From: an uncultured Rikenellaceae bacterium
Lineage (GTDB): Bacteria; Bacteroidota; Bacteroidia; Bacteroidales; Rikenellaceae
Length of the DNA: 64,000 bases
Reading direction: 5' to 3'
Assembly: GCA_947040435.1 (NCBI GenBank)
Contig: CAMRBL010000002.1
Coordinates: 23,778 to 87,777 of the forward strand
Shown here: in pieces, positions 7,966 to 62,000 of the stretch
Position numbering within the stretch: the stretch's first letter is position 1
Layout: every line of letters begins with the position of its first letter
Translations under genes and position numbers: made by a program
Notes under the pieces: generated by a model
Database searches by the model: none
What the model was told of the DNA's origin: nothing
Seen by the model: only the letters and a program-made list of their open reading frames with translations

Positions 7966-8021
7966 AGTTGCCCTACTCGGGTGGAACTGCGATCATGCAG
8001 CTCCACCCGAGTAGGGCAACT
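7966..8021 (-). terminator. GC-rich nested hairpin / probable terminator after ddh (family-2 repeat copy)
   Basis: AGTTGCCCTACTCGGGTGGA and TCCACCCGAGTAGGGCAACT, perfect 20-bp arms; the loop contains CTGCgatcatGCAG. Confidence 0.7.
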
Positions 8022-9064: not shown

Positions 9065-9206
9065 GGAAAATGAAGTTTTCAAAAAAGTTTAATGAATTTT
9101 TACAAAAAATATCGCCGAAGGCTGTTCCGTTAGACTAGACTACGAACTGCCTTCGGCGAAAAACTTTATAAAGTTTTATCAAATTTCATTGAAAACTTCG
9201 TTTTCT
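9065..9206. repeat. Family-1 palindromic repeat, complete copy
   Basis: Left arm GAAAATGAAGTTTTCAAAAAAGTTTAATGAATTTTTACAAAAAATATCGCCGAAGGCTGTTC; right arm reversed AGAAAACGAAGTTTTCAATGAAATTTGATAAAACTTTATAAAGTTTTTCGCCGAAGGCAGTTCGTAGTCTAG. Confidence 0.85.
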
Positions 9207-9216
9207 GAGAGATATA

Positions 9217-10314: not shown

Positions 10315-10366
10315 GTTCAGTGCGATCACGCACCGCAGCCCACTTAGGGCAGTTCATAGCCTAGTT
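10315..10366. repeat. Composite intergenic repeat: family-2 head joined to family-1 core
   Basis: GTTCAGTGCGATCACGCACCGCAGCCCACTTAGGGCAGTTCATAGCCTAGTTT; the first part matches copies at 7986 and 61961, the last part matches GGCAGTTCATAGTCTAGTTT at 20512. Confidence 0.6.
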
Positions 10367-15314: not shown

Positions 15315-15644
15315 AATATTGTAATATATTAAATTGGACACTATGTAAATGTAAAAATAGAGTATATATATGTATAATACCTGATGCGAAGGTAGTAAAT
15401 TTCCAATTAATAAATGAAATATACAAGCTTTTTTTCATAATCAACTTCAATGAGCACCTCTATATGTGTTGTGGTAGATAGTTGCAGTTAATATGGGTTT
15501 AGATGTAAAAATAGATTGTTCTGCGAGATCACTTATCACCACTAGCATTGTGCGGTTTACGTAAATAAAAAAGACATTTTGTGTGGGAGCTTTTTTTTTG
15601 TGAAAAAAGTGCTGTTTTTATGATAAAATCTCATTTATTACTAG

Positions 15645-20372: not shown

Positions 20373-20456
20373 TTTGTTTGTAGTAGTAGTGTTGTGTGCT
20401 TTTGTATTATGCGTCATTATACGTACTCCTAATGAACTATACGTAATGATAGATTC

Positions 20457-20531
20457 AGAAAACGAAGTTTTCAAGGAAGTTTAATTAAACTTTTTAAAGT
20501 TTATCGGCGAAGGCAGTTCATAGTCTAGTTT
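20457..20531 (+). repeat. Family-1 repeat, single arm (left of XRE cassette)
   Basis: AGAAAACGAAGTTTTCAAGGAAGTTTAATTAAACTTTTTAAAGTTTATCGGCGAAGGCAGTTCATAGTCTAGTTT. Confidence 0.8.
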
Positions 20532-20820
20532 GACAAACATCAAACACTGCGTAGTTTTACAATTTGGAACGGGTTCATCATGAGTTACGAAAAGTTCAGC
20601 ACCAAGAGCTTTCGGATATCTTCTCACAGAAGATATCAAAACACACTCCTTATCCAAGGCAGATAGACATAGACCAGTATTACCCTGCAACCTGTAACCT
20701 GCAAAGCCATAGGTAAATCAGGTATGACAGTCCTAAAACAGTGGAATCGTAATACATCTGATATGTTTGCTTAAAAAAAGGTACAATATTTTGAACCAAA
20801 ATAGTTAAGAGAGTTACCTG

Positions 20821-20866
20821 CGATCAAGCGGTGTCGCCTGCGGAGGGTAGTTCTATCAACTACCCT
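20821..20866 (-). terminator. Hairpin downstream of the XRE gene; degenerate family-2 sequence
   Basis: AGGGTAGTT-ctatc-AACTACCCT (20844-20866), preceded by TGCGATCAAGCG. Confidence 0.55.
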
Positions 20867-20879
20867 ACAAGCGAAAAAA

Positions 20880-21074
20880 TTACTCTACTAAGAATACACT
20901 TTCGACAGGCTTCTTAAATACCCGAGCTATTTTAATAGCAAGAATTGCTGAGGGGGTATATTTCCCCGATTCAATAGCATTTATTGTCTGCCTACTTACC
21001 TTAACCATATCTGCTAATTGTTGCTGTGTTATATTTAACATAGCACGTTCTACTTTAATTATATTATTCATCAC
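20880..21074 (-). CDS. XRE-family helix-turn-helix transcriptional regulator
   Basis: 64 aa; NNIIKVERAMLNITQQQLADMVKVSRQTINAIESGKYTPSAILAIKIARVFKKPVESVF. Confidence 0.93.
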   Translation of the reverse strand: MMNNIIKVERAMLNITQQQLADMVKVSRQTINAIESGKYTPSAILAIKIARVFKKPVESVFLVE

Positions 21075-21519
21075 AACTATTTCTAAGTTTAGCTAATCGT
21101 ATATTAAAGATTAGAACAAATGTGATGAGCAGAAAAAACATATTAAGGAGTGTAAATAGAAGAAAGGAGATACCGTACAGAAATAATGTACCTAAAATCA
21201 ATACAATACAACTTATCATAAGAGATTGTACTAACGATTGTAATCTAATCTTTTCAATGTATTCATCTTCATCTTTTTCTCGTGAAAAAGATATAAGAGA
21301 TAGAGATGACACTAATCCAATAATACCAATTTCAAATAAAATTCCTGTCTCTATAAATTTGAACCAACCATCGTCTGATACTACAGCAAAAACTTTCATT
21401 ACAATATCACCATCATAAGACGAGTCTGACAAAACGAATAAAAAAATTGCCATAAAAGGCAAAAGCATACACCAACCTATAATTTTACAGCAAGGTGGTA
21501 ATAAATAGTTAGTTTTCAT
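21064..21519 (-). CDS. Four-TM membrane protein of unknown function, operonic with the XRE regulator
   Basis: 151 aa with about four hydrophobic segments; overlaps the XRE gene by 11 bp. Confidence 0.75.
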   Translation of the reverse strand: MKTNYLLPPCCKIIGWCMLLPFMAIFLFVLSDSSYDGDIVMKVFAVVSDDGWFKFIETGILFEIGIIGLVSSLSLISFSREKDEDEYIEKIRLQSLVQSLMISCIVLILGTLFLYGISFLLFTLLNMFFLLITFVLIFNIRLAKLRNSCDE

Positions 21520-21550
21520 AATTTAAGATTTTAATTTATGTTACTTATCT

Positions 21551-21591
21551 CAAAGGTAAAGTATATTTTACATTATATCAAGTATACTTTA
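21551..21591 (-). promoter_or_regulatory. Promoter and tandem palindromic operator candidate of the XRE/membrane-protein operon
   Basis: -7 box TACCTTTG on the reverse strand (21558-21551) overlapped by TAAAGTATATTTTA (21557-21570) and TCAAGTATACTTTA (21578-21591). Confidence 0.6.
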
Positions 21592-21628
21592 CATTTTAAT
21601 CTATTTTCTTTCATATAGGCTAAAAAAA

Positions 21629-21704
21629 GACGAGCCTTCGAATTGCCTTTAGAGATAAATCTAGAAAAAAATTGATTAATCTATTTTGAAAACTTCTTTT
21701 TATG
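21629..21704 (-). repeat. Family-1 repeat, diverged inverted arm (right of XRE cassette)
   Basis: Reverse complement AAAAAGAAGTTTTCAAAATAGATTAATCAATTTTTTTCTAGATTTATCTCTAAAGGCAATTCGAAGGCTCG aligns along its length with the 20457 arm. Confidence 0.6.
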
Positions 21705-21750
21705 AGGTGTATTATTTATCTTAGAATAGATTGTATCTGTTAACATAAAA

Positions 21751-35284: not shown

Positions 35285-35344
35285 AGCGCCGCCCACATAT
35301 AATAACTTACTGCATTTAGTAATCTATTATATGTGGGCGGCGCT
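35285..35344. terminator. GC-rich bidirectional terminator between U32 and folA
   Basis: AGCGCCGCCCACATATAATA ... TATTATATGTGGGCGGCGCT perfect 20-bp arms between convergent genes. Confidence 0.75.
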
Positions 35345-45254: not shown

Positions 45255-45320
45255 AAACTATATCACAAAAAAAATGATAAAACCTTATAAAGTTTTATCA
45301 TTTTTTTTGTGATATAGTTT
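45255..45320. terminator. Bidirectional terminator between thioredoxin gene and obgE
   Basis: AAACTATATCACAAAAAAAATGATAAAAC-cttataaa-GTTTTATCATTTTTTTTGTGATATAGTTT, perfect 29-bp arms. Confidence 0.9.
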
Positions 45321-50076: not shown

Positions 50077-50130
50077 AAAAAGGCCGTTTTCGGTGAGATG
50101 TAATTAAGTCTCTCTGAAAACGGCCTTTTT
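50077..50130. terminator. Bidirectional terminator between GH84 gene and polyprenyl synthase gene
   Basis: AAAAAGGCCGTTTTC ... GAAAACGGCCTTTTT, perfect 15-bp arms between convergent genes. Confidence 0.85.
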
Positions 50131-58091: not shown

Positions 58092-58120
58092 ACTATACTA
58101 CAAAACTTGAATATATAGAT

Positions 58121-58278
58121 ACCAGAAAACGAAGTTTTCAAAGAAATTTGATGTGGCTTTTTATAGTTTTCTGTCGGAGACAGTTTGTAGACTAGGTTTA
58201 TAGAGACAAAGTACTATCTCCGACAAAAAATGTTAAAAATGTCTATTAAATTTACTTGAAAACTTCGTTTTCTCGTAT
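58121..58278. repeat. Family-1 palindromic repeat, complete copy
   Basis: Left ATACCAGAAAACGAAGTTTTCAAAGAAATTTGATGTGGCTTTTTATAGTTTTCTGTCGGAGACAGTTTGTAGACTAGG; right reversed ATACGAGAAAACGAAGTTTTCAAGTAAATTTAATAGACATTTTTAACATTTTTTGTCGGAGATAGT. Confidence 0.85.
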
Positions 58279-61960: not shown

Positions 61961-62000
61961 GTTCCCTGCGATCACGCAGCTCCGCCCGAGCAGGGCAGTT
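61961..62000. repeat. Family-2 GC-rich intergenic repeat downstream of ispD
   Basis: GTTCCCTGCGATCACGCAGCTCCGCCCGAGCAGGGCAGTT; hairpins CTGCG-atca-CGCAG and CCCTGC...GCAGGG. Confidence 0.7.

Follow-up and report, generated by a model that had tools for sequence, protein, structure and literature searches.

A two-gene operon encoding an XRE regulator and a small membrane protein is present in one species of a Rikenellaceae genus and missing from its congener, and it was probably gained or lost by ordinary recombination in an intergenic space that already bore old palindromic repeats. The operon lies in the window, the whole stretch of 64,000 nucleotides analysed here, which is part of a Rikenellaceae MAG (G000). 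This reading is built on the inverted repeat arms around the gene pair, a third arm between them, the lack of the pair in the congeneric MAG (G001) despite an array of repeats at the same site, the mostly ancestral state of the repeats and the bracketing of genes by repeats at chance level. The features of the locus are the following.

20457-20535, + strand: A-type repeat arm (20457-20531) followed by the loop of the family as far as about 20535; nhmmer E 4e-18; G001 has the orthologous arm
20536-20812, no strand: unexplained; no family match for any ORF; absent from G001
20813-20864, arm 20813-20853 in + orientation: B-type repeat arm with its own short complement, forming a strong hairpin at the XRE 3' end; profile E 5e-5, full length (1-41)
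20880-21074, - strand: XRE/Cro-like HTH regulator, 64 aa; Pfam HTH_3 E 1e-15
21064-21519, - strand: small multi-helix membrane protein, 151 aa, overlapping the XRE start; conserved Bacteroidales family
21552-21596, - strand: predicted AT-rich palindromic operator/promoter of the operon, GTAAAGTATACTTG...TGTAAAATATACTTTAC CTTTG; inverted repeat, like the palindrome upstream of many homologues
21629-21704, - strand: diverged A-type repeat arm in opposite orientation to the left arm, without partner; inverted repeat, blastn, profile 15 bits

Repeat arms around and between the genes

The preliminary description had placed inverted arms at 20457-20531 and 21629-21704, and these are borne out: the arms face each other across the XRE and membrane-protein genes, with a 48-nt core (20455-20502 and 21658-21705) that is 75% complementary, and blastn within the 64-kb window aligns them at 74% identity over 66 nt (E 3e-5). 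The left arm matches the repeat family strongly, with 30 or more blast relatives across the MAG at identities of up to 91%, and it has no convincing partner arm downstream (20457-20535). The right arm is a weak member, with a profile score of 15 bits and an E-value of 0.03 over 1.58 Mb, which we rescaled to about 2e-5 for a 1.2-kb stretch, so that it is locally significant; by blastn it matches the copy at 9067-9101 at 89% over 35 nt (E 1e-7). As the arms of compact elements are themselves 71-76% identical, the divergence between left and right arm alone neither favours nor rules out an origin from one split element.

Complete copies of the repeat are near-perfect palindromes built as arm, short loop and arm. 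They had been described with arms about 150 bp apart, a figure that fits the whole element (about 140-165 bp) and not the arm spacing, which is about 10-40 nt. The approximately 300 bp first regarded as unexplained must likewise be divided, since 20813-20853 is a B-type arm and about 280 bp (20536-20812) keep that status. The B arm is self-paired, resembling 3'-end hairpins at other sites, and the fold of 20800-20885 (-30.7 kcal/mol, z -4.2) places the hairpin just past the XRE stop codon. At the DNA level the remaining stretch matched neither the 61 genomes searched nor phage records; a pseudogene was rejected for lack of any Pfam, plasmid or phage match, and a known RNA family was rejected, no Rfam match being found in the window.

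The gene pair and the orthologous site in the sister species

The two genes form an operon that is conserved in Bacteroidales and brings its own operator and promoter. Within the family, 73 of 268 genomes encode a homologue of the membrane protein, further homologues are spread through the order, and in 49 of the 51 loci checked an XRE gene adjoins the homologue, directly downstream of it or overlapping it, as it does in the window. Curated Pfam families gave no match to the membrane protein and none that its relatives share, and no plasmid homologue was found. A palindrome of the GTAAA-N-TTTAC type stands at 21552-21596 and in front of many homologues, though not all, and it overlaps what we take to be a Bacteroidetes-type TAnnTTTG promoter box, which makes an autoregulated operon likely. 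The XRE protein would then be the autorepressor of the two genes, and the hairpin at their 3' end may have a role as well. Compared with the other Bacteroidales operons of this kind, that of the window shares gene order, gene overlap, upstream palindrome and a membrane protein 34-45% identical, and differs only in the surrounding repeats. As the repeat model matches no searched genome outside the genus while the protein family is order-wide, the pair is independent of the repeats.

G001, a congeneric MAG with about 80-90% nucleotide identity, has a contig (C1) that is collinear with the whole window; the two MAGs are 85% (G000) and 94% (G001) complete. At the orthologous site of G001, oadB is followed by four directly ordered A arms, which alternate with three A' arms, and then by a TPR gene; the repeats form a tandem array of 3.5 palindromic units with a period of about 153 bp (G001:C1:123761-124283). 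The XRE pair is absent from this site, and a search of the whole 94%-complete MAG gave no match to the membrane protein; the pair is thus a species-level presence/absence difference. In the G001 array the final A arm has no partner, and it is the one that aligns furthest into the loop of the window (79 nt), which suggests that a half-element stood at the site before the gene pair.

The preliminary description had called for a precise presence or absence of 20457-21704 in related genomes. The G001 site agrees in lacking the pair and in keeping repeats, but the missing segment does not have these limits: on the left it begins within the arm or immediately behind it (arm/loop), and on the right it continues for about 40 bp beyond the arm, so that the right arm falls within it. 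A search for target-site duplications had also been proposed, and none was found; around the two inner junctions the searched regions have no repeat of more than 6 bp in common, and the only 8-mer that they share is 54 bp away from the left arm, on its outer side. In an outgroup check of polarity, the adjacency of oadB and the TPR gene was found only in this genus, so that gain and loss of the pair are not separable.

The repeat family in two genomes

Three types of arm, A, A' and B, are found as A-A' and A-B combinations, as single arms and as tandem arrays, and complete copies fold end to end with about -40 to -67 kcal/mol. A covariance model gave 69 matches in the G000 MAG and 116 in G001 (both strands counted) and, at E 1e-7, no match in a further 59 relatives, from which the family looks genus-restricted; as the model handles single arms poorly, arm profile HMMs were used for these instead. 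Several G000 contigs (C24, C45, C48, C50, C125, C131 and C150) end in a repeat, and the true copy number is therefore probably above the count. Besides the arms at the XRE locus, the window contains further B-type arms (10315-10355, 61961-62000 and 7986-8018), other near-perfect palindromes of 54-66 bp (45255-45320, 7966-8021, 35285-35344 and 50077-50130), some of which are perhaps terminators or relatives of the repeat, and two compact copies.

9066-9208, - strand: compact complete repeat copy; the orthologous G001 site has a redoxin-family gene between two copies
58119-58278, + strand: second compact repeat copy; remnant at the orthologous G001 site

Over 1.58 Mb of the two genomes, with gene boundaries from a simple ORF caller, we counted 121 repeat clusters. 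None of the 121 lies inside a long ORF; their median distance from gene 3' ends is 26 nt, and they occupy 28% of convergent gaps against 10% of divergent gaps. In a single genome about 17% of intergenic gaps of at least 80 bp hold a repeat. Most mappable repeat sites in one species correspond to a repeat or to a decayed remnant in the other, with arrays of varying length, and most of the sites scored as empty contain decayed remnants, no clean empty site having been seen. The repeats are thus mostly ancestral at shared intergenic sites.

Long palindromic intergenic repeats such as ERIC/RU-1, Bcr1 and NEMIS are established in bacteria (reviewed in PMC2229807 and PMC3733652). Like these, the Rikenellaceae repeats are non-coding palindromes of about 130-165 bp that are intergenic, often near gene 3' ends, form long hairpins, reach dozens of copies and are restricted to one taxon; unlike these, they have modular arms (A, A', B) in several combinations and in tandem arrays, carry no demonstrated target duplication and are, in the two species, mostly ancestral and not freshly inserted. 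With REP/BIME sequences and REPINs, which are associated with RAYT transposases (PMC3116915, PMC2817692), they share the character of extragenic palindromes of alternating orientation, single or arrayed and enriched near gene 3' ends, but their arms measure 40-75 nt against 20-40 bp. The attC sites of integron gene cassettes are also imperfect palindromes beside gene 3' ends, with gene gain or loss at a site between two palindromes; the Rikenellaceae repeats, by contrast, are dispersed over the genome and form arrays without genes.

The recombinase search covered only Y1 transposases and integron-type integrases. No PF01797 match (Y1, IS200-like/RAYT) was found in G000 or G001, at 85% and 94% completeness and with positive controls, and the REP/RAYT reading was rejected for lack of such a transposase in either MAG. 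For the integron integrase (TIGR02249) only tyrosine-recombinase matches below the curated cut-off were obtained, as in all control genomes, and the integron reading was rejected because no integrase exceeded it. A literature search for such repeats in Rikenellaceae returned nothing relevant.

Explanations for the locus

In the explanation that we consider probable, genus-specific long palindromic repeats would have occupied the intergenic space before the operon difference arose, as old sequences that grow in place as tandem arrays and decay, mostly just 3' of genes. The arms paired in the preliminary description would then be independent repeat pieces, and ordinary recombination, possibly with repeat arms as joints, would have brought the operon into the lineage of the window or removed it from the sister lineage. 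Genome-wide placement agrees with this: over the 1.58 Mb, 20 pairs of neighbouring clusters have a spacing of 0.4-2.5 kb where random placement gives 17.4 +/- 3.6, and inward-facing neighbouring pairs number 3, against 3.4 at random, so that arms around genes are expected by chance; the genome-wide spacing of arm copies had been suggested earlier as a check. Four observations count against our explanation. The segment that G001 lacks includes the right arm, which could have arrived jointly with the genes; the two arms are as similar as those within compact elements; A arms stand on both sides in 2 of about 13 large species differences (at least 250 bp, in collinear regions); and the copy at 9066-9208 points to repeat-mediated gene exchange at least once more.

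At the site orthologous to that copy (G001:C1:136709-138256), G001 has an A-B element, a 422-aa redoxin-family gene (AhpC-TSA) and another repeat copy whose left arm is truncated, and the window sequence looks like a fusion of the left part of the first copy with the second copy, the join being in register and inside the A arm. One recombination through the repeat arms would explain 9066-9208, as a loss in the window species or a gain in G001, and this single case keeps alive the idea, plausible from the sequence comparison, that repeats act as local recombination joints. A 371-aa glycosyltransferase-like gene of G001 (C1, about 129171-130512) is likewise missing from the window, at 15416-15562, where a decayed B-like arm can be seen by eye under the profile threshold.

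Taken further, the apparent chimera at 9066-9208 could mean that arm-flanked gene units are inserted and deleted by in-register homologous recombination, the repeats serving as portable homology. The XRE site, with repeats on both sides in the window species and an array in G001, would fit such exchange, and some arm lies within 200 bp of about 6 of the 13 or so large species differences. Yet with a repeat in so many gaps several coincidences are expected, most large differences have no significant arm (for example g0_C1:33090, g0_C5:7585 and g0_C2:39193) and the bracketing is at chance level, and we hold this explanation to be unlikely. Its stricter form, in which modular repeats would be portable homology at gene 3' ends and single-operon cassettes (the XRE pair, the redoxin gene) would be swapped with neither transposase nor integrase, seems more doubtful still.

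The preliminary description saw a resemblance to a cargo-bearing version of a non-autonomous element. Such an element would be a MITE with captured genes, the arms being terminal inverted repeats moved in trans together with the XRE pair. The compact copies do have the build of a MITE, short and non-coding with terminal inverted repeats, and inverted arms with genes between them, absent from a related genome, are what such an element would leave. However, the missing segment does not stop at the outer arm ends and is flanked by no target-site duplication, there is a third, self-paired arm within it, a further mobile copy bounded by such arms was not found, homologues of the pair have their own operator and promoter, neither MAG has a Y1 transposase and most repeats are ancestral at shared sites; we regard this origin as very improbable. 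Two independent half-copies, offered from the start as the alternative, fit better. An assembler joining unrelated sequence at repeats, which the contigs ending in repeats might bring to mind, is hardly to be credited either: the longest exact matches of the left, B and right arm regions to the other sequence analysed are 20, 19 and 15 nt, too short for a usual mis-join, and the flanking genes are collinear with G001.

The locus therefore illustrates that a gene with repeats on both sides is not necessarily part of a mobile element, and it draws attention to an intergenic palindrome family of a Rikenellaceae genus that is seemingly undescribed. If the arms of this family are indeed joints for gene exchange, more genomes of the genus would show it directly.
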